Below are positions 8,801-46,481 of a stretch of 64,000 nucleotides of DNA, one piece after another. Both the position numbers and the translations under genes were made by a program. Below the pieces are notes generated by a model. The model was not told the DNA's origin, did not search any database, and worked only from the letters and a program-made list of their open reading frames with translations. Location of the stretch: NCBI GenBank assembly GCA_002162685.1, contig MAAQ01000022.1, positions 62,001 to 126,000 of the forward strand. The letters run 5' to 3'. This stretch comes from Flavobacteriales bacterium 33_180_T64 (GTDB lineage: Bacteria > Bacteroidota > Bacteroidia > Flavobacteriales > Flavobacteriaceae). Every line of letters starts with the position of its first letter. The first letter of the stretch is position 1.

Positions 8801-11800
8801 TAAGTTACTTTTCCTGTAATGGACATCTTTTCATTTCCAGAGCCTGGACCTGGAACACCAAAAGACTCGTATTCTATATCTTTTTTAACCTGAACAATAC
8901 GTGACAAACCATCAATGAAGGTAATTGTCTTAATAGTATTATCTGGGTGTTGAACATCGAAATGTTCTGTTACACCAACAGGCATAAAGGCCTCTTCAGG
9001 AATATTAGCCACTCCAGTAAGTTGATCATGCTTGGTATAATAACGGTACTGAATTGTAAAATCTGTTCCGGGATTTTCAATTTCCTTAGGTCCAATAATC
9101 TTAGTCGTTCTACCAAAAGCATCATACTCATATTGCATAGGAGAATTAGTGATATCGATAGTTTGCAAAATTGTATCAAATTCTGGATCATAACTTGCCG
9201 AAGATGTATACCCAAATGCATCTTGTGTTTGCACTCTATATTTACCTTCTTGATCATAAGTATAGCTGTAGCTCATACGTTCTCCACTAGCATTCTCAGG
9301 ATATGTGATAGAAGATAAGTTACCAAATTCATCATAGGTCATATCTGATTCTGAAAAGAGATCATCATTATTTATTCTTGCCTTTATCCTTCCTACTGTT
9401 CCTGTGTTAAGATCGATATTTGTAGTGAAACGTTCTCTCATTTCTTCATTACCTACCGAAACTATAGTACTTTTAGGTATGTTTATTAGATTCTTATCTA
9501 ATAAAACAGCATCATCATGATAAGTTACTGTTGTTGTATATTCATCTGGTTCCGATCCTTGGTCTACATCACCATGGTTCGTGAAACTCGAAACTCTGGC
9601 TAGGTCATCATACTCCATGGTCACTTCGGAAACAATTTCATTAGCTGTACGTTCAATAATACGATTGGTTGTTTTAGTTAGCACAGCTACAGCAGATCCT
9701 CTCCCTTCTGTTCCTCCAACATCGTAAGACTCATCTAGAACATTAGTCAAATCTAAGTGTTGATTATCAGTCTGAAGACCATAAATCGTGTATTCATTTT
9801 CTGTTTCGGTAAATCGGTTATCTGGAATATCGACAGAAAAACCACTTAAGTCACTACTCCCTCCAGATTTTACATTCTTAAGTTTTACAAGACCTTGTAA
9901 ATAATAATTTTTGTTATGGTATTGCGTCGTTGTTGTACGATATACGTCTGTTAGATTTTCGTCCCTATAGTCAAATACCTTGACAGTTTCAAAACCATAG
10001 AATTCACGTTCTCTTCTATCATATTTTGCATCGTCATATCTAAATTCGGTTACGTATTGATCTTCTCCATCGTTAACAATATCATGGTACCCATCATCTA
10101 CAGTAACGCTTTTCATTACCCATTTTGAATTTGGGTTATCTGCAGTTTTTGGATTAGGATTATAATCAACACTAAAAGAACCTCCTAAAGGATTATTCAC
10201 TGTACGAAGTTTATTAGTTCTTCCTATGGCCGAATAATAAACAACTAAATCATCTCCTGAGTCTTTCACATAATCGAGATAACCATCGCCATTCATATCT
10301 TTAAATGCCTTTTCTGTATCTGTAATTGACAGACTCATGCTTCCACCAAGTGTTACTCCAAACTTCAAGTGAACTGTAGGAACAGGGCCGCAGCATACTG
10401 GGAAACCAAAATAAATTCCTGCATCAATTGCAGCTCCTACACCTCTGCTTCTCGAATCTTGTTTAAGATTTGGGTTTCCAAAAATGGGAGAAGGTGTTGT
10501 TAAACTAGTTATTGGTCCAAATTTGTTCCCTAAATTGAAACGCACTTTTCCATCATTACCATCAGATATAAGCACATCTTGAAGCCCATCTCCATTTACA
10601 TCCTGAAATGTAGAACGCGTCGTCCCATTTGATCCAGTTACACCAATATTAAAATCGATTGACCCAGAAAGAATGTTTGATGTCGCAGGGTTATTTCCAA
10701 AAATTGTTGTAAAATCTACACCCCCAGGTAATCCTACATTGACATCAAAAGTGCCTGGTTCTGATCTTCCTCCTGTGAAGAGATTAGGAAATATCTCTGA
10801 AGTACTTTCATTTATATTAAATCCTCCTTTATTAAGACGATACTTAAAAGAACCTCCTTCTTCAGCAACACGATCAACTAAACCATCTCCATTAATATCT
10901 AAGAAAATTGCTGTTTGCTCACTATCTGCTTCTATATTAACATTGATGCCTAAAGTTGCCATTGGTGGCCCTGTCGTAACGGTATTCAAATTACCCTTAG
11001 CATTAGCTTTGGGTGCTGGAGCACTTTCCGAAGCGTTAGATTTGTCTGGTCTAAGATCATTGGTACTTCCAGATAAAGAAATAGATTGACCAGAACTATA
11101 CATGTTTCCAGGCTCGCCAAACAAATGTTGTTCCAACATATTTTTATGTCCACCAGTCATATTAGACTTAGTTACTACTTGTGGATAAACCGCATCTGGA
11201 TAACGATCTCCATTAATATCAATAAAGTCTGAAACCGTATTGTTATAATCATCTGTTTCGGTATTATTAAGTGCAACAGGACCATAGCCTCCTGCTAGTG
11301 TTTTTGAAGAACTTTTTTGCACTTTATTAATAGCATGCATTCCTGTCGTTCCATTGGCATCACCCCAATCTCCTTCATCGTCTTCATCCTGAATTATTCC
11401 ACTGAATGGACCACTATTTCCACCATCATTATTTCCTCCACCAGCATAATTTACCGTTCTATAAGTTCTTGCAGCCGAAAATTGAGCTTCTGAGAGTCCT
11501 ATCCATTTTTCAGAATCTAATGATTCCATGCGTTGCGCCTTACCAGGAACAAAACTAATTTCTGGATATTCAAAATTACTTGGGTCTAGCATACCATCTA
11601 GATTTCCAAATAGATTATCTAAATCGCCAGCGGTTATTACTGTCCCTTCGCTTGGTAAATTTAAACTTTGCTGTACACACTGTGCATAATTTTCATCTTG
11701 AGGACAATTAACACCAGGAATTGAAAACGTGTGATTTAATTCTGGGTTTTCAACAATATCCTTATTTATTAGGTTTCCAAAAACATCACCTGCCATGCCT

Positions 11801-14800
11801 CCGCCATCGTAATTTTCGTTATAAAAGAACTGTCCCCAACCTCTATAGAGAGGACCTAAATGAGGCATTTCATTATTATAGTACTCATGAGCGCCAGTCG
11901 TATACATTGCATTCGGGTTTGACCAGTTATAGCTAACTTCAACACTTTGATTTATTCCAGCAGCATCAATATATTTTCGGAGTAATTCTTTATTATTCTT
12001 ACCGATTGAATAATACCCAATAAAAGACACTATAGTTCCCGGCAGAGGTATATCTAGGTCTCCATCAAATATCCCAATAGGAATAGTACTTTCTGGGGTA
12101 ATCACACCATCGATCACATCAATTCTAATCTTACCTTTTGTGTAATTCGGTAATTTCACAACAAAAACGAAAGTCCCGTTGTCCTCATTTGTAAACCCAG
12201 CTGGTGTACCTGACAAAATCGCTGGGCGTGCTTCACAAGAGTTATTCCCTGATGGAGGAATTGCCGGAGATTGCCAATTCTCTTCGGCAAGAACATGACC
12301 ATAAGGAATATCGTAATTTGTTGCTCTATAAATAGGATAATCTGGTACAATATGTCTGGTTATTTCCATATCTGGAATACCTTGATTTTCGATAGCATCT
12401 TGATTAGGTTGATAAATAAAGTCCATATTCCATCTAAAAGCAGACCATTCTAAAGCATTAGAATCTGACAAAGCTTCAAAACTTATTGTAGAAAAATAGG
12501 CGCTATTTAAGTGAGGTAGAGGCTGTTGCAAATCGGCATTGCTAATAACCGTAGTTTGTAAATTTAATGCGACTTTGTTCATTAATTGATGTTCACTGAT
12601 CAAATCGCCATCAGTATTCCAAAAGCGTTGCACAACTTCAAATGTGATATCATCTGTAGGTCGTACAGTAATTGTTGGCATAGACAAAGCACCTATCCCT
12701 GTTCCTGGAAACGCCACACCTGTATTATCATCTAAACAGAAATCCTTTGCGAACTCATATACTTCTTCTTTCTTACCTATTTCATCTCCCCCTGAAGGTC
12801 CATCATCATAAACTATTCTTGGTGAAGAGTTTATTTCTGGATTATTATTTCCAGAGTGCACTCTAAAATATAATTTTTGCCCTTTGTCAACCACAATAGG
12901 GCCTGATGGAACGCCTAATCCTAATGGTGCTCCATTTTCATATTCATGCAAAGTGACATCTTGAGACGATGTGTTTATATATGTAAAAAACATTCTAAAA
13001 GGATCTCCATTATTTAATGAAGGTTTCGACGTCTCTATTGTGTATACGACATTTCCAGGGGTTAAACTTTGAATTTTATCTGTAATCGCGACCGTACCAT
13101 CTCTCGGAGCTATCCATACTCTCACTGCATCAAAATCAAGGAGTGCCTGTTGAACCTGATCTTGTGGATCTGGGTCATCTGGAAGACCAGGAATACTAGA
13201 ATCGGTTATGACCATATTTTCAGATTCGGCGCTTGAGCTAACAAAACTTCTCCCTCCAGTAGCTTCGTCCAGTGTATTGAAATATACCACTTCATCTTTT
13301 ACAATATCCATTATATTATCGCCATTCCCATCTACAAAATAGACTGTAGACTCCGACTTCGTCTTAACACGCTTTTTCGACCCAAAAAATCCAAAAGCAT
13401 ACAGGTCGTATGATTCTCCAAATATTGTTTTAGAGAACCCTTTACTTCTATAATAATCTGAAGCATTGTTTATAGGTAAAGCATTACTTGGTGTATCAGT
13501 CAGAAAGGTATATTCAAATCTATTTTCAAATTGGTCGCTAAGTTCCAATTGACCTCTAAAATATTCTAATCCGTTGCCTGTTCTGTAAATGAGGTCATCT
13601 AATCCATCTCCATCAATGTCAGAGAGTGTAACCTTTCCTTTATTTTTAAATGAATTTTCGCCAAAAGGCGCTCCAAAAGTTACATGTCTTCTTTTGTTCT
13701 GAGAATGTACTGCAGGTCTTATTTCAATTCCAGCAGAAATACTAGCCCTAAACCCAGTTTCTATGCTTTGATTTGCGCTAATCTCTGATCGATCTATTAA
13801 TCCACCTAAGCTATTTGCAAAGCTTGGACTATAGTCTGGAAGTTCTATAGTTTGAGGCGCAGTATATAAATTGCCTCCATTCAATTCTTGTACGTCGTCA
13901 TAATATTGGAAATCATGACGATAAAATTCGTTGCCTTCTTTATCTTTTTCAGCTACCCATTCTAAGAGGTTTTTAGTAAAACGACCTTCAATATAATCAA
14001 GTTCATATGATCTTATTAGGTTATTGTTATAACTAATTTCAATGTTTTTAAGCAAATATGGATCAATCCATTTTAAACCTAATTTAGCATTAATGTTGAC
14101 ATCAAGTTTCACATTACTTTCATCAAGTATAAATTGTACTTTATATGCTCCATTTGTTGTATTATGTCCAGTATAAATGACACTATCGCAATAAAAATAC
14201 GTTCCATTCGATAAATTATCACCAGTGGCTCCTATATTTTCATTTGTATAGGTATATACCATATTGTTTCCGAACACATCTTCAACTTTATACAAAGCCC
14301 AATGTACAATGTTATTGGCATCATTCCTTACAATAGTATTATCGATAAGATTTCCGTCGTATCCACCATACCAACTTACAGTTCCTGATGCATCTGTGGT
14401 TTTCCAATAGTAATTTTCAGGTGTTGTTCCGTACCGCTCAATCTTAGCAAATCCACCTTGTTTTCTTGGTGTAAATATCTTTGCGCCATCATTTATATAT
14501 TCGGTTCTATTTTGAAGAGATGTATCATACCCACTAACCTCATCACCAGCGTGTCTATGTGGTAAGAAATTGTTTGGATACATTAACATTTCTCCATTGA
14601 GGTTATATAATTCTGACTCTCCAGTTGTATCGAAAATTGGCGCTCCCCAACGTGTATCAAGATTTACAGAAGGCATATTCATACTCCAACCAAGGCCCAA
14701 CCAGCCATTACCCCCTTCACTGCTATAGCGCAACCCAACATTAGGTTGCATTCCGTTTCTTCCAGCTGGAATTCGAATAGGATAGGAAATATTAGCATCT

Positions 14801-16377
14801 CCTCTTTGCGATACAACAGGAGGTGTAATTAAGGTCATTGCTGCTGAAGGATCAACAGCCTTAATATCATTCATCATTGTTGGCATGAACGAACTTGTCG
14901 ATGATGCCTCTGGAGTTTGAATTATTCCGTTTATATAATCTGTACCATTGTTGATGTCATCAATTTTTAAATAGGAAATAAGTCTATTTTTTTTGACATC
15001 TAAAGAATCCTTTATCAACGCCTTCCAACCTTTTTCTTTTTTATCAAAATAAAAAGTTCTTATATCTTTTTTAGAATAACCCTCTGGAATCATTTCTGGA
15101 TTAAACTCTAATTCCAATTTAAAAGGTTTTTCAGTATTAATTCTATTGGTTGAATTAACTCTATATGCATGAGCATTTTTAGTTACATTTCGCATCCCAG
15201 ATTCAAATGGTGCAATATCTATTGCTCTTAAAGAGGTTATTGCGATACTTTCTTTTGCTGAGGTATCTTCATAAGTATTTACTGCTATTCCAAAAGCTTC
15301 ATTCCGTTCAGCGACCAAAGCACTTACAGTTGCACGATACTTTGTAGTTTGCAAATCATAAAGGTGATCGGCTTCCATTAAATAATCTTCTACAAATATC
15401 ACTTCTTGCCCTAATAAACCAGAAGAATCTGTTGCGATAACACGTAAAATATTACTTGCGTTTTGCCATTCTTTAATGGGCACTAGACCTTCAAACTCTC
15501 CATCTGAAACTTGTAATGGTGTCGTTCCTGCTATAACATTAAGATTTCCGGAAATGGTTCCTTTTACAAATCCCTTAATATATATATTATTGTCTTTTGT
15601 AAGTTGAACTTGATCTTGTTGAAGCACTAGAAGAGAAGGTACTTTTTCTGTATCTCCTGATTTTATTTCAATCTGTACATTTTTAATGGTATATTGATGG
15701 TGCATTGAGGACGGAATTGTAAACAACACTTCATTTTCACCTTCCATTAACCAATTTTTATTCAATTCCTCCTCTTGAGTGGTCCAACCTTTTGTAGCTT
15801 TCACCATATATCCTCCAAATGCAGAGCGTCCATTGATACTTCGAGAAACAGCATATTGTCCTTGTACACCTTCCAGTTCGTATTTCAGGATCACTTTATC
15901 TGTTATTTTTAATTGCGGCAAATCGTCAATCTGAATCACAAATAAATTATCTGATGGATTGTCCATTGGCATTTGCTTTGATACACCAACATGCCCTTGT
16001 ACTAGGTCTGCTTTAAAAATTCCGCCTTCAAAAAGAGATTTTATTTTCGATAATGACGCTTTAGAACTTATTGGTGGCTCTTTTTTATCTGATGTGACTG
16101 TGTTGATTGTTTCCGAATCTAAATTCGCACTATTTTCCTTCTCTGAAGATGTCTCTAATGAAATAAAATCTAAGGTATACTCTTCTAATCCTCTTTCTAG
16201 ATTGGTTTCAAAAAAATTATTTAAACGATCACCATAAAGGTCGATTACTGGCCCTAAAATTGGTTGCGCTGGAAGAACAAAAATCCAATGTAATGCTGTT
16301 ATTAATATAACGCGATAAGCGAATTTTTTGAACCGTCTATTTGTTGTAAACGATAAAGGTGTCGTATTAGTTTTCAT
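5815..16377 (-). CDS. Giant SpvB/TcdB-like RHS-repeat protein (about 3,520 aa)
   Basis: The open frame reaches 16473, but I choose the ATG at 16377: it lies 40 nt after the upstream gene's stop and begins a signal-anchor-like N-terminus (a basic stretch, then VILITALHWIFVLPAQP). Order of parts, counted from that start: a unique N-terminal region; an SpvB-type domain near 520-620 (PVVSQRGDANISYPIRIPAG, then GGNGWLGLGWSM); TcdB-like FG-GAP motifs near 920, 1016, 1720, 1829, 1926 and 2030 (for example FQDVNGDGLQDVLISDG); a long run of YD/RHS repeats from about 2150 to 3100 (YDAFGRTTKI, YDHLGRAIQTY); the RHS core near 3196-3300 (HGDHLGSASFITDASG, GLYYYGARYYNPS, NPINLIDPDG); and a C-terminal tip of about 208 residues. 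It probably forms a hollow TcB/TcC-like shell. The tip is Gly/Val-rich with no nuclease or ADP-ribosyltransferase motif I recognise, and no immunity gene follows. Toxin or surface-adhesin roles are both possible. Confidence 0.9.
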   Translation of the reverse strand: MKTNTTPLSFTTNRRFKKFAYRVILITALHWIFVLPAQPILGPVIDLYGDRLNNFFETNLERGLEEYTLDFISLETSSEKENSANLDSETINTVTSDKKEPPISSKASLSKIKSLFEGGIFKADLVQGHVGVSKQMPMDNPSDNLFVIQIDDLPQLKITDKVILKYELEGVQGQYAVSRSINGRSAFGGYMVKATKGWTTQEEELNKNWLMEGENEVLFTIPSSMHHQYTIKNVQIEIKSGDTEKVPSLLVLQQDQVQLTKDNNIYIKGFVKGTISGNLNVIAGTTPLQVSDGEFEGLVPIKEWQNASNILRVIATDSSGLLGQEVIFVEDYLMEADHLYDLQTTKYRATVSALVAERNEAFGIAVNTYEDTSAKESIAITSLRAIDIAPFESGMRNVTKNAHAYRVNSTNRINTEKPFKLELEFNPEMIPEGYSKKDIRTFYFDKKEKGWKALIKDSLDVKKNRLISYLKIDDINNGTDYINGIIQTPEASSTSSFMPTMMNDIKAVDPSAAMTLITPPVVSQRGDANISYPIRIPAGRNGMQPNVGLRYSSEGGNGWLGLGWSMNMPSVNLDTRWGAPIFDTTGESELYNLNGEMLMYPNNFLPHRHAGDEVSGYDTSLQNRTEYINDGAKIFTPRKQGGFAKIERYGTTPENYYWKTTDASGTVSWYGGYDGNLIDNTIVRNDANNIVHWALYKVEDVFGNNMVYTYTNENIGATGDNLSNGTYFYCDSVIYTGHNTTNGAYKVQFILDESNVKLDVNINAKLGLKWIDPYLLKNIEISYNNNLIRSYELDYIEGRFTKNLLEWVAEKDKEGNEFYRHDFQYYDDVQELNGGNLYTAPQTIELPDYSPSFANSLGGLIDRSEISANQSIETGFRASISAGIEIRPAVHSQNKRRHVTFGAPFGENSFKNKGKVTLSDIDGDGLDDLIYRTGNGLEYFRGQLELSDQFENRFEYTFLTDTPSNALPINNASDYYRSKGFSKTIFGESYDLYAFGFFGSKKRVKTKSESTVYFVDGNGDNIMDIVKDEVVYFNTLDEATGGRSFVSSSAESENMVITDSSIPGLPDDPDPQDQVQQALLDFDAVRVWIAPRDGTVAITDKIQSLTPGNVVYTIETSKPSLNNGDPFRMFFTYINTSSQDVTLHEYENGAPLGLGVPSGPIVVDKGQKLYFRVHSGNNNPEINSSPRIVYDDGPSGGDEIGKKEEVYEFAKDFCLDDNTGVAFPGTGIGALSMPTITVRPTDDITFEVVQRFWNTDGDLISEHQLMNKVALNLQTTVISNADLQQPLPHLNSAYFSTISFEALSDSNALEWSAFRWNMDFIYQPNQDAIENQGIPDMEITRHIVPDYPIYRATNYDIPYGHVLAEENWQSPAIPPSGNNSCEARPAILSGTPAGFTNEDNGTFVFVVKLPNYTKGKIRIDVIDGVITPESTIPIGIFDGDLDIPLPGTIVSFIGYYSIGKNNKELLRKYIDAAGINQSVEVSYNWSNPNAMYTTGAHEYYNNEMPHLGPLYRGWGQFFYNENYDGGGMAGDVFGNLINKDIVENPELNHTFSIPGVNCPQDENYAQCVQQSLNLPSEGTVITAGDLDNLFGNLDGMLDPSNFEYPEISFVPGKAQRMESLDSEKWIGLSEAQFSAARTYRTVNYAGGGNNDGGNSGPFSGIIQDEDDEGDWGDANGTTGMHAINKVQKSSSKTLAGGYGPVALNNTETDDYNNTVSDFIDINGDRYPDAVYPQVVTKSNMTGGHKNMLEQHLFGEPGNMYSSGQSISLSGSTNDLRPDKSNASESAPAPKANAKGNLNTVTTGPPMATLGINVNIEADSEQTAIFLDINGDGLVDRVAEEGGSFKYRLNKGGFNINESTSEIFPNLFTGGRSEPGTFDVNVGLPGGVDFTTIFGNNPATSNILSGSIDFNIGVTGSNGTTRSTFQDVNGDGLQDVLISDGNDGKVRFNLGNKFGPITSLTTPSPIFGNPNLKQDSRSRGVGAAIDAGIYFGFPVCCGPVPTVHLKFGVTLGGSMSLSITDTEKAFKDMNGDGYLDYVKDSGDDLVVYYSAIGRTNKLRTVNNPLGGSFSVDYNPNPKTADNPNSKWVMKSVTVDDGYHDIVNDGEDQYVTEFRYDDAKYDRREREFYGFETVKVFDYRDENLTDVYRTTTTQYHNKNYYLQGLVKLKNVKSGGSSDLSGFSVDIPDNRFTETENEYTIYGLQTDNQHLDLTNVLDESYDVGGTEGRGSAVAVLTKTTNRIIERTANEIVSEVTMEYDDLARVSSFTNHGDVDQGSEPDEYTTTVTYHDDAVLLDKNLINIPKSTIVSVGNEEMRERFTTNIDLNTGTVGRIKARINNDDLFSESDMTYDEFGNLSSITYPENASGERMSYSYTYDQEGKYRVQTQDAFGYTSSASYDPEFDTILQTIDITNSPMQYEYDAFGRTTKIIGPKEIENPGTDFTIQYRYYTKHDQLTGVANIPEEAFMPVGVTEHFDVQHPDNTIKTITFIDGLSRIVQVKKDIEYESFGVPGPGSGNEKMSITGKVTYDHLGRAIQTYHPWHENTAPDLNYQLNNYQNINYFSETIYDQLDRVKETIDAAGNKSFSSYTVSNNLHKSTSRIEQNDANEITSMSFSDARGRKVKTIQVGPDGNLETLFTYNAINELEAYTDADNITTYFDYDLLGRKIRRIHPDNGVTEFFFDNANNLIKMQTEKMAIADEFITYDYEFNRLIKSNFPDGPGGEENIANVTISYGAANSGFETGRIIEQTDGTGIQTFTYGNMGELVHNTRTVIAPSLPARTFDTSFAYDSWNRVLNVQYPDGELVNYNYNLGGQLNNVQGGIDGSEYMYIKNTNYDYFGQTTSKEFGNGTRATYTYEPELRRLSRAVLFDGANTKLLDNHYTYNKASNVTRIKNLAGSNNEYEMGGNYTHNYSYDILNRLSEASGGFNGNGFSHPEAFNSSYSLTMEYNNSHGIANKKQQHNINNTAVDKNTYNRIYTYIEGTHKLEKIEEPAVTVVGSGFAMNFDYDVNGNITNVNDTNGNNSNYYWDESNRLRVVHDIATMRMHHYIYDASNQRIFKSSSDPTAIYENGSPVESQSVTFENYTTYPSSLIVVKPDGEYTKHYFSGGQRILSRIGDGDIDFATPISGDGTLIGKLKSIQQRQIQDLQKTTIKSGVGTVEFKKYVSKEDALEVNDLENDEVQKGDKPSESAPGNIYFFHGDHLGSASFITDASGDAYQFFANLPFGETMIEQKNTEVPDDYENRYKFNGKELDTETGLYYYGARYYNPSTSVWLSVDPMADAMPSWNSYNYTMQNPINLIDPDGMMPNGPGDPPKWKIWLKDTWEDVKYDWSKIMDDLDNGWFDDKEFVLDGSAKADIGLQIGVNGKIYGVIDVKGKLDVVSFELINGKVDLTNPGKAESYMVEHILNGDGKGVKYETGIDVIVGIGGKEIIGGNYKSVHRGHDSSSEQVAEEGGIYFIIPLAKIKNSENSKAFQNVGLYKMPTKVKASPNTEGFYGLDFGLGVAIIIGINANLKIGWKTKE

Positions 16378-16417
16378 AAGATGTGCGTTTAATAAAATAT
16401 TATGTGACTTTGGTATT

Positions 16418-18319
16418 TTACTTAACCAAGAGTTTGAAGGTTCTACTCGTTTGAGCTGTTTCGACAGACACAAAATAAATTCCCGAATTTGATAGTTTAT
16501 TTTGATAAGTGATCTGTTGTCTATTCAACAATTGTTCTGAAGCTACGAGTTGGCCGTTTATATTGAAAATGCGAATTATCACCTTAGATGGTTGCTTTAA
16601 ATTCATACTCAATGTAAACGATTGATTAATTTCTACCGGATTCGGAAATAGTTCCGAACTTCCGTTATCAAAAGCATTATTTCCAATTACTTCTATAGGA
16701 AATCGTGTTTCACATCCATTGGCTGTGATTACTACAAATTCATAATTTCCCTTCGATCGAAAGACAAATTGTTGAGTTGTGGCCAGTTTGGTTGTACTAT
16801 CATACCAGGCATATGTTAAGTCTAAATTTTTATGTGCTGTTACATATGGCAATACATGTACTTGACCATTGGCATCTAACTGCCAAACAGGTGCAATTTC
16901 TACTACTGGAGTATTTTGAACATCAAGTTTTACAGACGTTTCGAAAACTTGATTAAGTGCATCGGTTATTATTATGTTGTGGGTTCCAGCTTCTAAATTT
17001 AAATTAAAATGAGCGTCATTAGTTTCGTGTATTGTTATACCATTTTCAGACGTTGTTTCAATGTTAAATGGAGCTTGTCCTCCTTCAAGTTTCAATTCTA
17101 CTAAAGACGATGTTGTATTGACACAATTGGTTGCAGTAACTTTGGTTTGTGCAAAAAAAGCAGGTGCAGCAAAAAATGTGAAATAGCGAAACTCTTTATC
17201 AGTAATCTCCCAAGGAATATCTTTAAAAACCATAATTCCAGTTTCGGTATTTACTGAAGGGTATATTATAGCCGTTTCAAAATCGAAAGATCCCTTATAA
17301 TTATCCTGAACTGCAAGCCATAATTTAAAAGGGGTATCACCTGGAGCAGGTAATTTCATTTCCATATCCTTCAGGTTGACATGTAATTCTATGCTTTGTT
17401 GGTTTAAATCTTCTAGCCCATTACTGGTTTGTACTTTCCATACACGTTCCATTTTTCGAAACGTATCATTTGCATTATTCAATAGTTCTGTGCCTGCGTT
17501 ATTATTTCCCCAAACTAGAAAGAAGCCATTAGATACTTTAGTTTTATTTTTAGTATTTGATGTTTCTATTGTATCAAAACCAATAATAAGACCATCATTC
17601 AAGGCATTACCTGATTGTTTTTGATCTAATTTATGTTCATCATCTCTACCTATACCTGTAACATTATGAGTAAATTCTTTATTCTTTTTATACGACCAGA
17701 TGGTATCGTTCTGTGAAGTGATATAGCTCTTTTTACCAATAAGGCTAATGCCATATTTAATAGATAAATACGACTCTACTTTAGAACGCTCTAGTAGGTT
17801 GAGGATCTTTGGGAAATATAAAACTTCAACCAATTGATTATTTTCTGGATCTTCATTAATACGTTTATAGAAATCCTTAAATGACAAGCTATTTTTTTTA
17901 GAAAAATGCTTCATTCTGGTCATGTAGGATAAAATCATTCCATTATTCGGGTCTGATTTATCATATTCTAAACCTTCATCTTTATCGATAAAAGTACTTG
18001 TTACTTTAATTTTATTTTTTCGAGTAGATAGTTTAAAGACATTTTCTTCACTATTGTCATTGGTCTTAAAAACTGTGAAAATGGAAAAATATTCATCTAG
18101 TAGATTTTTATAAACTGCTTTTTCTTTCATAATATCTACCACAGGATTGTAATTATACAACACCTCCTTGTTTCTCGTTCGATTTTCGGAATTCTGTTGT
18201 ATAATACTGTCTCCTCTTAACCAAAGTTTATTTTCAGAGAACCCTACTGTTTGTTGCCCATAGGTTACCTCAAGACAAATAAAATATATTGCAAAAGCTA
18301 AAAATAATAGTCTATTCAT
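16418..18319 (-). CDS. T9SS-sorted surface protein, upstream partner of the RHS giant (633 aa)
   Basis: A signal peptide (MNRLLFLAFAIYFICLEVTYG) is followed by a region near residues 180-270 with the Bacteroidota pattern SYLSIKYGISL...IWSYKKNKEFTHNVTGIGRDD (split here), which I associate with surface proteins annotated as DUF8202 or LamG-like. Residues 395-530 look like Ig/PKD-like repeats. The last ~70 residues form a T9SS type A sorting domain (ELFPNPVEINQSF ... GIYFVSVETAQ). The stop lies 40 nt before the chosen start of the RHS giant, so the two are very likely co-transcribed. The giant has no T9SS domain of its own, so this protein may be a surface partner or a display factor; that is inference from position only. 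Confidence 0.85.
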   Translation of the reverse strand: MNRLLFLAFAIYFICLEVTYGQQTVGFSENKLWLRGDSIIQQNSENRTRNKEVLYNYNPVVDIMKEKAVYKNLLDEYFSIFTVFKTNDNSEENVFKLSTRKNKIKVTSTFIDKDEGLEYDKSDPNNGMILSYMTRMKHFSKKNSLSFKDFYKRINEDPENNQLVEVLYFPKILNLLERSKVESYLSIKYGISLIGKKSYITSQNDTIWSYKKNKEFTHNVTGIGRDDEHKLDQKQSGNALNDGLIIGFDTIETSNTKNKTKVSNGFFLVWGNNNAGTELLNNANDTFRKMERVWKVQTSNGLEDLNQQSIELHVNLKDMEMKLPAPGDTPFKLWLAVQDNYKGSFDFETAIIYPSVNTETGIMVFKDIPWEITDKEFRYFTFFAAPAFFAQTKVTATNCVNTTSSLVELKLEGGQAPFNIETTSENGITIHETNDAHFNLNLEAGTHNIIITDALNQVFETSVKLDVQNTPVVEIAPVWQLDANGQVHVLPYVTAHKNLDLTYAWYDSTTKLATTQQFVFRSKGNYEFVVITANGCETRFPIEVIGNNAFDNGSSELFPNPVEINQSFTLSMNLKQPSKVIIRIFNINGQLVASEQLLNRQQITYQNKLSNSGIYFVSVETAQTSRTFKLLVK

Positions 18320-39829: not shown

Positions 39830-40366
39830 TCACTCGAAACCAAGAGCACTTAGAAGCCCTGCAGGACAACCGAAACACGTGGTATGACTAAGGTAGAAAG
39901 TACCATCAGCTCTCTGATAATAGTAATAAATTTTTACTTGACTACCACCACATCGACACGGTCTTACACGTGGTCCTGCAAGTGATACATCCTCTCCAGA
40001 CCCCTCAATTTCTTCTATTGGGTAATATTGGACAATAGGAGCACTTTCTAAATTTTGTCCAGTGATCTTAAAAAGATGGAAATCATTATACCTAACAACA
40101 TCCATCTTTTCAATACTATTAAACTCCTCTTCAAAGTTATGACTCACTTCATCAATGTAATCAGAAGAAAGCTCATAAACAAGATTTTCTCCTGCTGAAA
40201 TAAATTCGTTAAACCTGTCGGAATCAGTTTGAGATTCCCGGTTGGGAGTTTTATTTTCCAACTTTGTATAGGATTCTGTATTAAATTCGTTGAGAGTACT
40301 TTCTTTATCACACGACACAATAATAAAACACAATAATAGTGCAAAACTTAACTTGTAAATTTTCAT
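39830..40366 (-). CDS. Cys-containing lipoprotein, candidate member of the CHAT module (178 aa)
   Basis: A lipobox ends the signal peptide (MKIYKLSFALLLCFIIVSCD). Residues 20-125 are acidic and helix-prone (SRKTPNRESQTDSDRF-like, then DYIDEVSHNFEEEFNSIEKM). The C-terminal ~50 residues form a compact Cys-rich end: VRPCRCGGSQVKIYYYYQ and then TTCFGCPAGLLSALGFE, with two CxC/CxxC pairs that could bind metal or form disulfides. No named family. Upstream (40446-40476) is the same bipartite promoter-like sequence found upstream of the subtilisin gene, TTTGGGTAAT and AATACTA 14 nt apart, so it should be co-regulated with the proteases; it is a possible substrate or sensor. Confidence 0.75.
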   Translation of the reverse strand: MKIYKLSFALLLCFIIVSCDKESTLNEFNTESYTKLENKTPNRESQTDSDRFNEFISAGENLVYELSSDYIDEVSHNFEEEFNSIEKMDVVRYNDFHLFKITGQNLESAPIVQYYPIEEIEGSGEDVSLAGPRVRPCRCGGSQVKIYYYYQRADGTFYLSHTTCFGCPAGLLSALGFE

Positions 40367-40445
40367 TTTAATAAATTTTTAATTTTTCCTACTCTATTTA
40401 TAATTAGGCTTTTCAGATACCACCTTGTTAGATTAATCTATAAAG

Positions 40446-40476
40446 TAGTATTAGAAATAAGAATTCATTACCCAAA
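40446..40476 (-). promoter_or_regulatory. ECF-like promoter upstream of the Cys-containing lipoprotein
   Basis: On the minus strand: TTTGGGTAAT (40476-40467), 14 nt, AATACTA (40452-40446). The same two blocks at identical spacing occur upstream of the subtilisin gene. Allowing for the flanking bases, GGGTAA and TACTA are 17 nt apart, a normal ECF -35/-10 distance. Confidence 0.65.
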
Positions 40477-40526
40477 AAATGAGAGTAATCGTATAGAAAA
40501 TAAAAAATAAGAGTCTATTGGTGAAA

Positions 40527-43253
40527 TTAGCGAACTGCCTTTTTTCGTTTAAGTACTATAAAAAGTATTAAAATGACAAGAAGAATTAATATTAATTGCA
40601 TAATATAATTATCTGTAGGTTTTATAACTGGTTCAATATTGCCAGTAAGTGTCATTGCTGCCCAAAAATAGGGTGAAGAGTCGTATAAATCGCTAGTGTT
40701 TAAGTGGTCTAATTTTGCGTTATGCAGTGCTTTAGATTTTGTTTTTCCTTTTTGTAATTCTTTGAAAAATGTGTTTAGAATTTTAGTATTAAATCTTTCG
40801 TTCACCTTTCGTTGCGATGCAATTACACTTCGAGTACCATTATAAAAAAACCCTCGTGACAAACTCATTATACCTTCTCCTCTTTCTTGTTTTCCTAAAG
40901 CAGTTTCACAAGCATCAAGAATAACAAGTTCTGCTTCATTATCTAATTTGTACAGTTCACTTAGGGTTAATTTTTCATCAAAAAATGCTATCCAAGGCTC
41001 ACCAGTATTTTCATTAATTCCAGCGTGCGTATTTATATATATAATATCATGATTTTTTAAATTAGCGATAAAAGACTTTTTTGTTGCTTTTTCTTTAAGC
41101 AATATTTTTGATGAAAGAGATGTAAAGATGCTTCGCATGTTATTTTTTTGTAATGATGGTAAAGAATCATAATTAAAAATCACTGGTGCGTAGCTTATTA
41201 ATGTTTGCTCTTTTTTAAATTTGTCTTTTTCTAATTTATTGAAAACAGAAACAGATTGTAAATATGAAATTTCAGTTTCTTGGATTAAATAATTGGGCTT
41301 AAAATCACCTATGACCTTTTTTAAGGTTAACGCTTCAAAAGGAAAATTTAGCAATTCACTGTCAGATATCACAGTTAATTTTTTGTTTGATAACTGTTTT
41401 ATATTTTCTTTAAACGGAAATAGTCTATTAAAAACTGAATATGCCAATTTGTTATATTCATCAAACTCTACTTGGTACTTAAAGGGTTTACTAATCATTA
41501 CTTTTAGATACTTTACATCTTCAAATAATTGAAACGTATTTGCTATTTCAAAAAACTGAACGCCTTCTTCACCACTAAAAATACCATAGCCATTCTCGTT
41601 ATTAAAAATATATTCTACAAAACAGGATTGTTTTGATACGTGTTTGTTTGTCGCATTGTTTAATGTAAGGATTTTTACATCTTTATTCATATTAGTATAC
41701 GAAGGATAATTACTCTCTAAAGAATCTAAAAAGTTGGTGTAATTTTCTTTTAATATTGAATATTCAATTTGTAAACTTTTATTTTTTGGTTTTTGTTTTA
41801 TATCTCGTTCTATATCTAGTAGTTGGTGTTTTAAACTATACTTTCTGTTTTTTAGCTTTTCAGGTACTTGCAAACCCATTTCAATCTGTTGCTTATTAAG
41901 ATTTTCTAGTAATAATAGTGCTTTGTTTTTCTCCATAAAATAAAACGCTTCTTCTTGCTTATTTAATAAATAACAAACTTTTACAGCAAGCATATACGTA
42001 TTTACTCCTCTTTTAATCCAATACAGTTTAGAATTGTCTGCTTCACTCTCCATTCTAATAAGAGATATTAATTCATCAATTAAGTATAATGTTTCTTTAG
42101 CATATTTTAAATACTCGGTTTTTTGCTCTTCTTCAAAACTTACAACCCAATTATTGGCTTTATCAATTAAATAACCTAATACATCAAGTTTATATTCGGA
42201 GTCTTTAATATCTTTAATTGTAGGTAATGAAATTAAGTTCGTTGAATCGTTTGGAATCTCTAAAACAGTATATATTGCTTTTTGATAATAATAGGTTTTA
42301 TCAAACGCTTTATTGGTTTTAAGATAATATCCCAAATTATCATAAACAAAAGAGTTTGCATATGGGGAATTAGTACCCTTTAATGATTTCTTATAATAAT
42401 CATTTGCTAAATCATCTTTATTTTGCATTGAATATAAGGCCCCAATATTATTATATAACAAGCTAGCATTAATAGAATCATTTAATTCTAAAGATAATTT
42501 TAATGCATATTCGTTATATTTAATTGCTCTGTCGTTTTCTCCTTTTCTTTCATAAATTTTTCCAAGATTTCCATTTACAATATAGCTAGTTTTGGCATCA
42601 TTTTGAATTAGTTTATCAAGTTCCTTCTTGTAATTCAATACAATATCCATTTTACTTTCAGGCACTTTTTCCATTAAACTATATATATAAATGCTTTCCA
42701 TGTAACATTTAAGTAAAAGTTTTTGCTCATTATGTTTCTCAAAATATGTTTTTGCAATATTTACATAATCTAATCCTTTAAAAAAATCACCTGATTCGCC
42801 ATATAATATTCCTAATCTAAAATAAGCGTAATAGTTGTATTTATTTTTCTTATCACTTTTAATTATTCTTTCTAAAACTTTTTTAGAGTTTTCTTTATCT
42901 TTTGCTTTGTTATAATATTTATACGCTTTGTATAAACTATTGTCTAATTTATAACTAGCATTTGGAATTTTTTCTCTTATTTCTATAGCTTTTGATATTT
43001 CTACAATTGCATTTTTATAATTTCTTATTTTATAATTATAACTTCCTAATTGATGATATATATCACTTTGCTTTTCTAAATTATTTACAAAATTATCATG
43101 CTCTAAAAGTAACTTGGTTTGTTCAATTTTTTCATGAGTTGGCATTGAAGAATCTTTAATAACACCAATCAGATCTGCCTCTATATTTTGAGCTTGCAAT
43201 ACATAACAATGGCTAATAAAAAATAATAATTTCATCAATACTTTCATAAACAT
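40527..43253 (-). CDS. Exported TPR-CHAT protease (908 aa)
   Basis: An N-terminal signal peptide (MKVLMKLLFFISHCYVLQAQ from the second Met) is followed by about ten TPR-like helix pairs (residues 35-360; clear ones are YNYKIRNYKNAIVEISKAIE and NLGKIYERKGENDRAIKYNE). After a helical linker comes a CHAT domain (about 620-860), a caspase-like cysteine protease fold: His in DIIYINTHAGINENTG (near 741) and Cys in LVILDACETALGKQERGEGI (near 780), then SPYFWAAMTLTGN. A C-terminal helix (YIMQLILILLVILILFIVLK) with a basic tail should anchor it in the inner membrane with TPR and CHAT in the periplasm. It follows a subtilisin gene across an intrinsic terminator. Substrate unknown; the adjacent anti-sigma is a natural candidate. 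Confidence 0.9.
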   Translation of the reverse strand: MFMKVLMKLLFFISHCYVLQAQNIEADLIGVIKDSSMPTHEKIEQTKLLLEHDNFVNNLEKQSDIYHQLGSYNYKIRNYKNAIVEISKAIEIREKIPNASYKLDNSLYKAYKYYNKAKDKENSKKVLERIIKSDKKNKYNYYAYFRLGILYGESGDFFKGLDYVNIAKTYFEKHNEQKLLLKCYMESIYIYSLMEKVPESKMDIVLNYKKELDKLIQNDAKTSYIVNGNLGKIYERKGENDRAIKYNEYALKLSLELNDSINASLLYNNIGALYSMQNKDDLANDYYKKSLKGTNSPYANSFVYDNLGYYLKTNKAFDKTYYYQKAIYTVLEIPNDSTNLISLPTIKDIKDSEYKLDVLGYLIDKANNWVVSFEEEQKTEYLKYAKETLYLIDELISLIRMESEADNSKLYWIKRGVNTYMLAVKVCYLLNKQEEAFYFMEKNKALLLLENLNKQQIEMGLQVPEKLKNRKYSLKHQLLDIERDIKQKPKNKSLQIEYSILKENYTNFLDSLESNYPSYTNMNKDVKILTLNNATNKHVSKQSCFVEYIFNNENGYGIFSGEEGVQFFEIANTFQLFEDVKYLKVMISKPFKYQVEFDEYNKLAYSVFNRLFPFKENIKQLSNKKLTVISDSELLNFPFEALTLKKVIGDFKPNYLIQETEISYLQSVSVFNKLEKDKFKKEQTLISYAPVIFNYDSLPSLQKNNMRSIFTSLSSKILLKEKATKKSFIANLKNHDIIYINTHAGINENTGEPWIAFFDEKLTLSELYKLDNEAELVILDACETALGKQERGEGIMSLSRGFFYNGTRSVIASQRKVNERFNTKILNTFFKELQKGKTKSKALHNAKLDHLNTSDLYDSSPYFWAAMTLTGNIEPVIKPTDNYIMQLILILLVILILFIVLKRKKAVR

Positions 43254-43280
43254 AAATTTGCTTTTAAATTAAGCATAAAA

Positions 43281-43309
43281 AATCGCCTAAAGAAATATTT
43301 TAGGCGATT
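43281..43309 (-). terminator. Strong terminator between the subtilisin and CHAT genes
   Basis: AATCGCCTAAA and TTTAGGCGATT make a perfect 11-bp stem with a 7-nt loop, followed on the minus strand by TTTTTT. It lies inside the 78-nt gap, so the CHAT gene is probably expressed by partial read-through, giving less CHAT than subtilisin. Confidence 0.85.
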
Positions 43310-43331
43310 CCAATCTATATTTTTATCACTT

Positions 43332-44573
43332 TTATTCTATGACTTTTGAGTATTTAGTGGCTCTTGAAAAATTTGCTGCTGGAGTTCCATTACTATCAAG
43401 ATAATCTATTAATTCTGCTGGAGAATAACTCATATTTGATTGGTATAATACCGCTGCTGCTCTAGCAGCTACATATGAAGCCGAAAATGAAGTACCACTT
43501 AACTCTGTATCATAAAAAAGAATACCTTCTCCTTTTGCGTAGAAATCAACACTTATACCTCCATAATTCGAAAATGAAGCTATATCACTAGAGTTTGTAT
43601 TAGAGGCAGCAACTGCTATAATATTTTCGTGAGTATAAGATGATGGGTAATGTTGCAAAATATCATTATCATTTTCATTATTCCCAGCAGAGGTAACAAC
43701 TAAAACATTTGGGTGATTTTCAAATATACTTGAAAGAATATCACCTTTTAAATTTCCTGAACCATCATCATGCCATCCAAAAGCCTCTGTCACTATATCT
43801 GCATTTTCACAAGCATATTGTGTACCACAAACCACGTCAGAGTATCTACCATTGCCATCATTATTAAGAACTTTTACTCCTAGTAAATTATAAAATATAT
43901 TATTATATAATTCTTCATGTATAATAGAGCTTACTTGAGTACCATGTCCGCTATAATCATAGATATTGTTATCATTATTTACAAAATTCCATCCAGATGG
44001 CATTATTGAAGAATTTCCGTTATATAAAAATTGGGCTTGGTTAAATACTGGATGATTTGAATCAATTCCAGAATCTACAACCGCTATTGTAACCCCTTGA
44101 TTTACACTGACTAAATTCGATAAATAATTTATATTTGAAGCCCCTTGGAACCCATCACTAGAATAGTTTGAAGAAAATTCAAACTGATTATCGATGTGCT
44201 TTACTAAAATCCCATCATCATCATCATCATCATCATCATCAGATGATTTAAGAGATGCTGTTGCATGTTCTGCTTGTATTACTTCCTCAAACGTCCATAT
44301 TTCAATGTCATTAGAACAAAAACAAACTTCATAACTTAAAACATTATATTCTAATCTTAATTCTTCTTTTTGAATTTCTGTTATTTCAGCTACATACTGT
44401 AAAACAAGTTCGTTTTCTATAATGGTAGTATTATTTTGAAGTTCACTTGCTTCTCTCGAGAAAGCAGTTTTATTTTTGTTTAAATTTTCATCATTAAAGA
44501 ACTCTTCATCTTTTTGTGAGCATGAGAAAACAACTAGGATTACAAGAATAAAAGGTGAGATTAATTTTTTCAT
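43332..44573 (-). CDS. Subtilisin-family (S8) serine protease lipoprotein (413 aa)
   Basis: The lipobox is in LVILVVFSCSQKDE. A propeptide-like region (residues 45-105) ends in a run of nine Asp (about 112-120), then the S8 domain: Asp in IAVVDSGIDSNHPVF (near 166), His in YSGHGTQVSSI (near 207), oxyanion Asn in VVTSAGNNEND, Ser in LSGTSFSASYVAA (near 360). All catalytic residues are present. It should be a membrane-attached periplasmic or surface protease. It is the first gene of an operon with the TPR-CHAT gene and is divergent from the sigma gene; the promoter at 44669-44699 is shared in form with that of the lipoprotein at 40366. Confidence 0.9.
   Translation of the reverse strand: MKKLISPFILVILVVFSCSQKDEEFFNDENLNKNKTAFSREASELQNNTTIIENELVLQYVAEITEIQKEELRLEYNVLSYEVCFCSNDIEIWTFEEVIQAEHATASLKSSDDDDDDDDDGILVKHIDNQFEFSSNYSSDGFQGASNINYLSNLVSVNQGVTIAVVDSGIDSNHPVFNQAQFLYNGNSSIMPSGWNFVNNDNNIYDYSGHGTQVSSIIHEELYNNIFYNLLGVKVLNNDGNGRYSDVVCGTQYACENADIVTEAFGWHDDGSGNLKGDILSSIFENHPNVLVVTSAGNNENDNDILQHYPSSYTHENIIAVAASNTNSSDIASFSNYGGISVDFYAKGEGILFYDTELSGTSFSASYVAARAAAVLYQSNMSYSPAELIDYLDSNGTPAANFSRATKYSKVIE
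44214..44240. repeat. Trinucleotide microsatellite, (ATC)9
   Basis: Nine identical ATC units on the plus strand encode nine consecutive Asp (GAT) in the subtilisin between its propeptide-like region and catalytic domain. Unit-length slippage would keep the frame and only change the Asp count. Confidence 0.9.
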
Positions 44574-44668
44574 TTTTTACATTTTTTAATTAATAATTTA
44601 AGTATACATTTCATATCTTCACGATAATGCTTACCGGTTTTTTATAACATTAGTGAGATATTATATAT

Positions 44669-44699
44669 TAGTATTAAATACTAAAAAATATTACCCAAA
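44669..44699 (-). promoter_or_regulatory. ECF-like promoter upstream of the subtilisin-CHAT operon
   Basis: On the minus strand: TTTGGGTAAT (44699-44690), 14 nt, AATACTA (44675-44669), matching the element at 40446-40476 in sequence and spacing. The -10-like part lies in a perfect palindrome TTAGTATT-T-AATACTAA. It lies between the subtilisin gene and the divergent sigma gene. Confidence 0.65.
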
Positions 44700-44728
44700 T
44701 CATCTAAAAATTAATTGTTAAAATAAAA

Positions 44729-45286
44729 ATGTTACAATCAGAAAGATATTTAAACGGTCTTATAGAAAAAGACAATGTTGTGACTTTAAAAATTTATAAA
44801 AAAAATTTCCCAAAAATAGAGTTATATATATTAAGAAATAATGGAGAGAGAGAAGATGCTAAAGATGTGTTTCATGATGCTTTACTATATTTAATCATTA
44901 AACATAAAGAAAAGCCTTTGAAAATAAATTCTTTTGAAGCCTATTTATTTACAACATGCAAAAATATATGGAGAACTAAATTAAAAAACAAAAAAGAATG
45001 GGTAATAAAAGACAATAGTGTTCCACTAATTTCTAAAGAAGACGATTTAAGCCTATTTATTTTAAAAGAAGAATATTTAGATTTGTATCGTGATATGTTT
45101 CAGTTGCTTTCAGAGAATTGTAAAGAAATTTTAGGGAAATATTTTAGCGGACAAAGTTACGAAGATATTCTTAATGATCTATCATATAGCTCAATTAACA
45201 CAGTAAGACAAAGAGTTTTTAAATGTAAATCGAAAATCATTAAATTGATAAAAGCAGATTCACGCTTTCTAAAATTAAATAAATGA
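44729..45286 (+). CDS. ECF-type sigma-70 family RNA polymerase sigma factor (185 aa)
   Basis: Region 2 is recognisable at about residues 30-95 (LRNNGEREDAKDVFHDALLY LIIKHK, then NSFEAYLFTTCKNIWRTKLK) and region 4 at about 120-175 (LSENCKEILGKYFSGQSYED ILNDLSYSSINTVRQRVFKC). The length is typical of ECF factors. The stop overlaps the next start (ATGA), the classic sigma/anti-sigma coupling. It is divergent from the subtilisin-CHAT operon with a 155-nt gap. The shared promoter motif of that operon and the lipoprotein gene is a plausible target, but the motif is not seen in front of the sigma gene itself. Confidence 0.88.
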   Translation: MLQSERYLNGLIEKDNVVTLKIYKKNFPKIELYILRNNGEREDAKDVFHDALLYLIIKHKEKPLKINSFEAYLFTTCKNIWRTKLKNKKEWVIKDNSVPLISKEDDLSLFILKEEYLDLYRDMFQLLSENCKEILGKYFSGQSYEDILNDLSYSSINTVRQRVFKCKSKIIKLIKADSRFLKLNK

Positions 45287-46074
45287 ATTTAGAAGATATA
45301 AATATTCAAAATAAAATTGAAGCGTACATTCTCGGCAAAATGGGTGCTAACGAAAAAAAAGCATTTAAAAAACTTATTAGCACAACACCTTTACTTAAAG
45401 AAGAAGTTAATATTCAACAATCTTTGCATTCAGTTTTTAATGAAAATATAAAATTTAAATTTGATAAAAATAAAGTTAATAAAATTAAAGTACAATTAAA
45501 AAATAATGAATTTCAAGAGCTATCTGATCATATAAAGAATACTCATAAGGTTTTTGAAAAAAATAGAAATAATAAAATATCCTTCTATAAATATGCTTCA
45601 GTTGCTGTAGCTGCCATTTTCATTCTATTTATTATAATTTTTAATCCAAATGATTTAAATGATTATTATAATGAATATGAAAATTGGGAAGATTTACCTT
45701 CTTATATTGAACAAGGAAATAATGAAACAGATAATCTATATAAAATTGAAAGGTATTATAATGAAGAAAGATATCATGAAATTATCAAGTTAATTAATTC
45801 AAATCTTAATGAAGAAACTAATATTAACCCTGAAAAATTGATCTATCTAGGTGCTTCTTATTTTAAAGTTAATGATACTAAAAAAGCTTTAAAAACGTTT
45901 GATGAACTAACAATATCTGGCCATGTTTTAAATTCTAGAGGCTATTGGTATAAATTGCTTATATATTTAAAAACAAATAACGCAAAAAAAACTAGTGAAA
46001 TATTAGAAATTATAACCTCAAATCCATCGTATTATAAACACAAAGAAGCAATAAAAATACATGAAAGTTTATAA
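45283..46074 (+). CDS. Membrane anti-sigma factor with periplasmic TPR-like domain (263 aa)
   Basis: The cytoplasmic N-terminus (about residues 1-98) has the anti-sigma pattern IEAYILGKMGANEKKAFKKL followed by EEVNIQQSLHSVF, without a zinc-binding HxxxCxxC motif. One transmembrane helix follows (KYASVAVAAIFILFIIIFNP, about 103-122). The periplasmic part (about 140-263) has TPR-like helix pairs, such as YNEERYHEIIKLINSNL and LIYLGASYFKVNDTKKALKT FDEL. The gene overlaps the sigma gene by 4 nt (ATGA). It presumably holds the sigma factor at the membrane until the periplasmic part is cut or bound; the TPR may dock onto the TPR-CHAT protease. Confidence 0.8.
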   Translation: MNLEDINIQNKIEAYILGKMGANEKKAFKKLISTTPLLKEEVNIQQSLHSVFNENIKFKFDKNKVNKIKVQLKNNEFQELSDHIKNTHKVFEKNRNNKISFYKYASVAVAAIFILFIIIFNPNDLNDYYNEYENWEDLPSYIEQGNNETDNLYKIERYYNEERYHEIIKLINSNLNEETNINPEKLIYLGASYFKVNDTKKALKTFDELTISGHVLNSRGYWYKLLIYLKTNNAKKTSEILEIITSNPSYYKHKEAIKIHESL

Positions 46075-46481
46075 TGTGAAAGTTTAGATAATTGGTAATT
46101 AATTGTTGAATTCAAAATATCCTACAATCATATTATAAGATTTACATTTTCGTTCTTTTTCAAATCTAATCTTTTGAATAATATAATAAAGATTAACTCT
46201 TAACTACTAATGAAGATTCTTTATTAGCTGTTCTCTTTCTTTTGAAGTATTTGATGTTGAGTAGATATATAGGCTTAAAGATTACTTTTTACACTTTTGA
46301 TTGGTTTTTGGAAGATAATAATCTAAGAGTAAACTTTCTTGACCGTCTTTCATTTTACGCTTTCTAATTGCTATATTCATATCAAATTTTTTGTGTCACA
46401 AATAAAAAAAGGCAAACAAACAAAAACTAAATTTTCATGTATTTGATTTTTAGTTAATTATATTAATGTAGTTTATACTAG
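46075..46481. other. Intergenic region holding an integrase relic
   Basis: About 400 nt. The only structured content I see is the tyrosine-recombinase remnant at 46207-46380; the rest is AT-rich with no gene. Confidence 0.6.
46207..46380 (-). pseudogene. Tyrosine-recombinase (integrase) N-terminal arm-domain remnant
   Basis: From an ATG at 46380 the minus strand reads MNIAIRKRKMKDGQESLLLD YYLPKTNQKCKK, an in-frame TAA, then SLSLYIYSTSNTSKEREQLI KNLH and TAG TAG. This matches the start of Bacteroidota tyrosine recombinases (KxRKxKxGxxSLxLDYYxP...KxRKxExLGLYLYxxPxTxxEKxxN). The core-binding and catalytic domains are absent, so it is dead. It lies about 100 nt from the 3' end of mnmE. Confidence 0.8.

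Follow-up and report, generated by a model that had tools for sequence, protein, structure and literature searches.

Protease-controlled release of an extracytoplasmic function (ECF) sigma factor is a known kind of regulation, and the locus described here would be a variant of it. The locus occupies positions 39,830–46,074 of a 64,000-nucleotide stretch (hereafter the window) of Flavobacteriales bacterium 33_180_T64 (contig MAAQ01000022.1, positions 62,001–126,000) and encodes a CHAT protein with tetratricopeptide repeats (TPR-CHAT), a subtilisin-like (S8) lipoprotein, a second lipoprotein, an ECF-type sigma factor and a membrane anti-sigma-like protein. Its sigma/anti-sigma/protease chain resembles CalpL/CalpT/CalpS of type III CRISPR, in which a protease, an anti-sigma factor and a sigma factor reportedly form one signaling chain. 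CalpL, however, is said to be a cytoplasmic SAVED-Lon protease activated by cyclic oligoadenylate, not a CHAT enzyme.

By analogy, the nearest worked-out case is Craspase (Csx29/Csx30/CASP-sigma), in which, according to the accessible part of the source, the TPR-CHAT protease Csx29 cuts Csx30, an inhibitor of CASP-sigma (PMC10028731). Craspase likewise encodes a TPR-CHAT protein, a sigma inhibitor and an ECF sigma factor together, and strong CASP-sigma sites lie in its own locus, as in the cassette (same part of PMC10028731). In contrast, the CHAT protein of the cassette carries an anchor at its C-terminus and, as a rule, a hydrophobic segment at its N-terminus (78/78 and 74/78 aligned proteins, respectively, by hydropathy only), and its putative inhibitor is a membrane TPR protein. 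No gRAMP/Cas7-11 effector was found in the translations of 16.4–50 kb of the window (minimum lengths 80 and 170 aa), a search that did not include CRISPR arrays, nor in the Pfam matches of nine neighboring proteins. A type III-E Craspase has such an effector beside a cytoplasmic CHAT protein; as the protease here looks exported and no CRISPR effector was seen in the part read, the cassette may at best work like Craspase and does not belong to that system.

Two further systems are close in logic. RseA–RpoE, with DegS and RseP, also has a membrane anti-sigma factor with a periplasmic domain and site-1 cleavage outside the membrane (PMC8103513, in the portion available), but the cassette encodes its own candidate site-1 protease, a CHAT enzyme, and its periplasmic domain is of the TPR type. 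A Phocaeicola vulgatus pair induced by BcpT is a Bacteroidota sigma/anti-sigma pair that answers envelope attack; in contrast to the cassette, its anti-sigma factor ends, according to prediction, in an outer-membrane beta-barrel, and the available sections of the source describe no CHAT or S8 partner for it (PMC9308784).

A proposed envelope-signaling cassette

With about even confidence, we read the locus as a self-contained envelope-signaling cassette with a small private regulon, in which CHAT would be a signal-activated anti-sigma protease. It appears to be a recurring module of many marine flavobacteria, whose sigma/anti-sigma switch would turn on CHAT and one or two exported neighbors. 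Judging from gene order and topology, a membrane anti-sigma factor with a cytoplasmic N-terminal part, one hydrophobic segment and a periplasmic TPR domain would hold the ECF sigma factor. The periplasmic, membrane-anchored TPR-CHAT protein, the constant partner, would most likely be activated by a signal and would cut the anti-sigma factor outside the membrane, setting the sigma factor free. Comparative sequence evidence suggests that the free sigma factor binds GGGTAAT-type −35 elements and transcribes the operon of the S8 or propeptide lipoprotein and CHAT, closing a positive loop, and that it also transcribes one or two adjacent genes for cargo, most of it exported; in this copy the cargo would be the lipoprotein at 39830–40366. 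In the most tentative step, the propeptide-like domain of the first operon gene, with or without a protease, may be a regulator or trigger of CHAT. If this is true, caspase-like CHAT proteases would govern transcription in the bacterial envelope, besides CRISPR complexes, and the paired sigma/anti-sigma/CHAT loci of Flavobacteriaceae-type genomes would share one testable logic. Literature combining CHAT with sigma or anti-sigma factors consisted, among the matches listed, of CRISPR type III and seemingly unrelated work; the module itself was not found there, in a search that left subscription papers and outside preprints uncovered.

The features of the window copy are as follows (ORF, open reading frame).

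39830–40366, minus strand: Cys-containing orphan lipoprotein, "cargo" gene of the window copy (ORF)
40446–40476, minus strand: lipoprotein promoter, TTTGGGTAAT-N13-TAATACTA (genome and window pattern scans)
40527–43253, minus strand: exported-looking TPR-CHAT protein with a C-terminal membrane anchor and His743/Cys782 (ORF, Pfam, alignment, hydropathy)
40638–41432, minus strand: CHAT domain, residues 608–872 (PF12770)
43332–44573, minus strand: S8 (subtilisin) lipoprotein with complete D167/H210/S362 (Pfam, alignment, structure model with mean pLDDT 86.8)
44172–44426, minus strand: propeptide-like domain of the S8 protein, residues 50–134 (model and kinship to stand-alone lipoproteins in relatives)
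44669–44699, minus strand: S8-CHAT operon promoter, TTTGGGTAAT-N13-TAATACTA (genome and window pattern scans)
44729–45286, plus strand: ECF-type sigma factor, recognition helix YSSINTVRQRVFKCK (TIGR02937 and TIGR02985 below cut-offs; conserved divergent position)
45283–46074, plus strand: membrane anti-sigma-like protein (helices ~6–96, hydrophobic helix ~99–120, periplasmic TPR domain 149–263)

All five genes lay where an earlier reading made from the sequence alone (the sequence-only reading) had placed them, and the overlap it described between the sigma and anti-sigma genes is 4 bases long. On the claim that the module borders an accessory island, the analysis covered base composition: the G+C content of these two genes is low (0.244 and 0.221, against 0.32 for the window). 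The source genome holds three copies of the cassette: that of the window, a divergent one on contig C16 that includes S8 (its genes are anti-sigma, sigma, one for an 878-residue protein, S8 and CHAT) and a convergent one on contig C23, where no S8 label adjoins.

The neighborhood recurs in relatives. With the window CHAT protein as query, 83 of 149 genomes of the family gave matches, many of which covered TPR only. We read 97 neighborhoods (94 fetched, the window and two paralogs), and a sigma-labeled frame was present in 80, the sigma and anti-sigma labels coming from profiles built on the window proteins that may also catch other ECF or TPR proteins. By the position of the anti-sigma-like gene, 74 of the 97 were classed as divergent (28), one operon (18) or convergent (28, assigned from the anti-sigma label alone); 23, some at contig ends, were left unclassed. 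When named genomes were scanned with 16 aligned CHAT proteins, 77 loci emerged, found in Bizionia, Dokdonia, Lacinutrix, Kordia, Aquimarina, Tenacibaculum, Psychroserpens, Winogradskyella, Flavobacterium and metagenome-assembled genomes; L161, L183 and L187 were dropped as duplicates of L031, L074 and L060. When the second copy of the source genome was counted in, sigma and anti-sigma genes were divergent from CHAT in 69/78 loci, and sigma alone in a further 3/78.

Because the named loci had been picked by closeness of CHAT, reverse queries were run on the 149 genomes. Close anti-sigma matches (E 1.7e-52 or better) adjoined CHAT in 16 of 17 cases, the last lying where a contig ends inside S8, and S8 matches (E 1e-30 or better) did so in 14 of 15 (coordinates compared by eye), the last being on another fragment of a broken assembly (G089). 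Close relatives of the anti-sigma and S8 proteins are thus found almost only beside CHAT. The sequence-only reading depended on the CHAT, S8 and sigma genes being neighbors in related genomes; as the five-gene neighborhood recurs, it came through this first test.

Two variants were seen among the neighborhoods. In the only other member of the source genus among the 149 genomes, tandem CHAT genes (1079 and 1094 residues) follow the sigma/anti-sigma pair (L122, G045:C8). A second divergent class (L094, L098, L104, L107, L109, L110, L115, L129, L132 and L136) has CHAT proteins of ~850–880 residues. Here sigma/anti-sigma stand opposite an operon that encodes CHAT together with a small protein, a lipoprotein-like protein and a PKD protein, and each locus has between one and three promoters of the GGGTAACAA...TATA type. 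Its sole Pfam-scanned member, L094, matched PKD, DUF7619 and DUF7849.

Sigma factor, putative anti-sigma factor and the cassette promoter

The best matches of the sigma protein were Bacteroidota and general ECF models, all under their cut-offs. PF04542 (E 0.0029, 17.8 bits against a cut-off of 24) and TIGR02937 (E 2.8e-10, 40.1 bits against 42.9) came near but stayed below, and TIGR02985 (E 1.9e-12) was also below its curated cut-off. Gene order, size and promoter evidence support its identity as an ECF sigma factor. In its partner, the TPR-like domain described from the sequence was borne out by a structure model, in which helices at the N-terminus and a long hydrophobic helix are joined by a TPR fold at residues 149–263, and TPR models dominate the Pfam matches of anti-sigma members. 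No zf-HC2 or other zinc-finger anti-sigma model was among the Pfam matches of the window protein, nor was a zinc-finger anti-sigma family among the 25 listed of the 41 families matched by 48 anti-sigma members. From gene overlap, topology and conserved pairing, we infer an anti-sigma role for this membrane TPR protein. Between its membrane segment and TPR domain lies a conserved juxtamembrane stretch, YxxYxxWxxLPSxxxKG (residues ~129–150), which is a candidate cut or docking site.

The promoter pattern TTTGGGTAAT-N13-TAATACTA had two perfect matches in the 3.75-Mb source genome, one ahead of S8 and one ahead of the lipoprotein, as expected from the claim that the protease operon and the lipoprotein have a promoter in common. 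GGGTAATN15-17TACT matched four times, at the two cassette promoters and twice within long open frames of the opposite strand, and its reversed control seven times; the only intergenic matches of the strict promoter pattern in this genome were two, both at the cassette. At up to three mismatches, 1/100 window shuffles reached two matches. Judged by the strict pattern, comparison shows the regulon of the source genome to be small and local. A genome-wide regulon was considered and rejected, since the extra strict matches fell inside long frames and the loose matches were not above control.

A second line of evidence came from 78 loci (the window plus 77 more) whose sigma factor has the usual helix ...QR[VI][FHY]KC. 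Between sigma and the operon, GGGTAAN was found on the operon strand in 75/78 and on the other strand in 0/78. It was missing in 3/3 divergent loci with an altered helix (L184, L212 and L222), which fell outside the helix count by the search expression and were counted apart. In other upstream gaps of the first set of loci, GGGTAA occurred in 31/503, with 15/503 on the reverse strand. The seventh base of GGGTAAN followed the fourth position of the helix: T with I or V, C with E, D, Q or G, and, where the helix has F instead of R, G. This rule was drawn from 14 loci (14/14) and was correct in 52/55 new single-hit loci, a count that leaves out six multi-hit and three no-hit loci. Comparison of these loci shows that sigma factor and promoter belong together and that CHAT is their constant partner. 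The further claim of the sequence-only reading, that the sigma factor raises both the protease operon and the lipoprotein, is very likely right on this comparative promoter evidence. The −35 element and the helix-base relation would let the targets of each copy be read from sequence. The available text of PMC9723704 describes an ECF motif, SM6, whose −10 box is CGT, and contains no GGGTAA; a literature search for GGGTAAC showed nothing relevant among the matches listed.

Several observations weigh against this reading. With up to three mismatches, the promoter pattern matched the genome 24 times against 48 for its reversed form, with no enrichment, and because of this only the strict form is informative. 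GGGTAAN was absent from L198, L203 and L230, and in the first set GGGTAA stood upstream of only 1/28 convergent and 0/18 operon-type CHAT operons. Exceptions to the helix-base rule are L175, L178 and L211, and six loci have more than one hit. On the CHAT tree, the seventh base changes 4 times, the helix class 2 times and R to F once; with so few changes, the match of base and helix holds at the level of clades. Among independent pairs (n = 3), about one agreed and two did not differ (sign test not significant). We therefore rejected the 52/55 count as evidence from independent events, the tree showing 4 base changes. Sigma and anti-sigma genes also occur with no CHAT-labeled gene in the stretch read (L233, L237, L238 and L240), as does anti-sigma alone (L234, L236 and L239), these loci coming from weaker anti-sigma matches. 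Moreover, a promoter upstream of CHAT would be equally expected if CHAT were a mere regulon member, and cleavage of the anti-sigma factor by CHAT is proposed by analogy to Csx29/Csx30.

These points bear on an alternative that is possible but on balance doubtful: CHAT and S8 would be effectors of the regulon acting on envelope substrates, and the anti-sigma factor would be released by general regulated intramembrane proteolysis (by DegS/RseP-like proteases encoded elsewhere) or by a direct binding signal at its TPR domain. Both genes do lie downstream of the sigma-type promoter, some similar sigma/anti-sigma pairs have no CHAT-labeled gene nearby, and DegS/RseP-type release is an established ECF route (PMC8103513, in the portion available). 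However, the anti-sigma gene remains next to CHAT in the convergent and co-operonic layouts as well as the divergent one, even without the GGGTAA promoter, and a mere target need not do so.

CHAT, S8 and the propeptide-like domain

The CHAT domain is clear (PF12770, E 8.6e-46, 157.1 bits against a cut-off of 24, residues 608–872), and TPR repeats precede it (TPR_12, 5.8e-12). The catalytic pair, placed near 741 and 780 in the sequence-only reading, is His743/Cys782 and is kept in 78/78 aligned CHAT proteins, the window one counted in; by significant domain and catalytic His/Cys, the window protein is a CHAT peptidase. The TPR array and C-terminal anchor claimed for it were likewise found, the anchor as the hydrophobic segment present throughout the alignment. 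Among the PDB matches of the window CHAT region (phmmer) there was no Csx29 chain, only one chance-level match, and the best 60 of 184 PDB matches of the whole CHAT profile included TPR and designed-repeat proteins.

The S8 protein is also intact. PF00082 matched with E 6.8e-27 (95 bits against a cut-off of 21.8), and the complete D/H/S active site described earlier was located at D167/H210/S362, invariant in 41/41 aligned sequences, so that domain and triad make it a peptidase S8. Ahead of the S8 domain, as in subtilisins with their I9-type propeptide, lies a domain of strand-helix-strand-strand-helix-strand fold (pLDDT mostly 78–95, one loop near 60). The longest structural matches of the model were the pro-subtilisins PvSUB1, Tk-SP and pro-subtilisin E (TM by query 0.57–0.63, rmsd 6.6–8.5 over 403–435 columns), and no Pfam propeptide model matched the window S8 protein or the eight small lipoproteins scanned. 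C84 and C86 of the propeptide-like domain and C249 of the catalytic domain were invariant in 41/41 and perhaps form a disulfide or metal site joining propeptide and protease.

The first gene of the operon differs among relatives. In 68 divergent named relatives it encodes a full S8 protein in 48 and, in 20, a small protein (260 residues at most) that by eye resembles a lipoprotein; this replacement of S8 is new. Because the small protein stands in the place of S8 in 20/68 relatives, we rejected S8 as the essential anti-sigma protease. The sequence-only reading had proposed cleavage by CHAT or subtilisin; an essential part in this is unlikely for the subtilisin, and CHAT is the candidate protease. 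When signal peptides were removed, the S8-propeptide and small-lipoprotein groups aligned over 50 columns (hhalign probability 95.2, E 2.5e-8, a single comparison). An S8-propeptide profile matched 5/24 small lipoproteins at E <1e-3 and 0/23 controls (best control 0.58), kinship being weaker or unproven for the remaining 19; L062, L213, L217 and L229 were omitted from the 28 small lipoproteins as too divergent. By these profile matches, some small lipoproteins clearly carry the S8 propeptide-like domain alone. Thus, in contrast to a subtilisin propeptide, the domain in cassette relatives may stand by itself on a lipoprotein adjoining CHAT, which suggests a new mode of CHAT protease regulation.

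Cargo genes and the role of the cassette

A further gene with a promoter of the locus's own base was found in 45/78 loci, 56 genes in all; promoters with one of the other three bases gave 10 hits. Most of these cargo genes (47/56) lie one or two genes past CHAT, on either strand. By a hydropathy rule, not a signal-peptide predictor, 46/56 look exported, compared with 234/603 other genes. Ten cargoes picked by eye were read with Pfam (for one, from L211, the base fits its own operon and not the helix rule): several carry a type IX secretion system (T9SS) C-terminal domain, and there were also a YadA-head protein, an M36 peptidase, one C39/VKOR/thioredoxin protein (L230) and one without a match. 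The window cargo lipoprotein (39830–40366) had no match in the other 148 genomes searched. The variable cargo is a handle on the purpose of the switch.

In nine loci (L198, L209, L210, L214, L219, L221, L223, L225 and L230), a peptide export locus follows CHAT. A C39/VKOR/thioredoxin-type protein comes first, with the cassette promoter (L230 was Pfam-scanned), and is followed by small Cys-rich frames, mostly with double-glycine (GG) leaders, by an ABC exporter gene and, in most of the loci, by a gene for an HlyD-like protein (by eye).

Such loci, together with the exported-looking and T9SS-tagged cargo, would suit an explanation in which the proteases mature the cargo: variable surface proteins or peptides would be produced, trimmed and exported by the cassette, and the sigma factor would simply co-ordinate this. 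The S8 model also matches EpiP, a leader-processing protease, among many subtilisins. We nevertheless hold this to be improbable: where GG-leader peptides occur, the locus has the small lipoprotein in place of S8, CHAT stays constant while cargo changes, and a dedicated membrane anti-sigma factor would be superfluous.

Returning to CHAT as the anti-sigma protease, a more specific form can be put forward tentatively, as a guess we would sooner doubt than accept. The cassette may be an exchangeable Flavobacteriaceae-type envelope switch, in which the propeptide-like lipoprotein restrains CHAT, CHAT cuts the TPR anti-sigma factor, and the sigma regulon consists of the switch and interchangeable cargoes. 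The lipoprotein would have lost its own protease in some lineages, the cargo in some species would be a GG-leader peptide export locus, and the cassette would be a periplasmic, CRISPR-free counterpart of Csx29-Csx30-CASP-sigma.

A stress or defense role had also been raised. A phage-defense module comparable to Craspase, with CHAT activated by infection, is highly improbable, in spite of the resemblance of TPR-CHAT plus sigma to type III-E loci (PMC10028731, in its accessible part) and of a remnant integrase nearby. Judged by hydropathy only, the CHAT protein looks exported and membrane-anchored and so would not be expected to read RNA in the cytoplasm, and the variable cargo looks exported too. 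PADLOC gave 0 matches at E up to 1 for CHAT, sigma, anti-sigma and the lipoprotein; S8 alone matched, to the generic subtilase PDLC03014 and IetS models, and the signature proteins of a PADLOC system were not found. PHROGs returned generic protease and sigma families only. Antagonism between bacteria is a possible role. The "dead integrase" of the sequence-only reading proved to be a short remnant only, resembling the N-terminus of a tyrosine integrase (~46284–46380, minus strand, identified by eye), between the anti-sigma gene and mnmE. Elsewhere in the window, an open frame of 3552 residues at 5815–16473 (minus strand) is RHS-repeat-like, a label given by eye.

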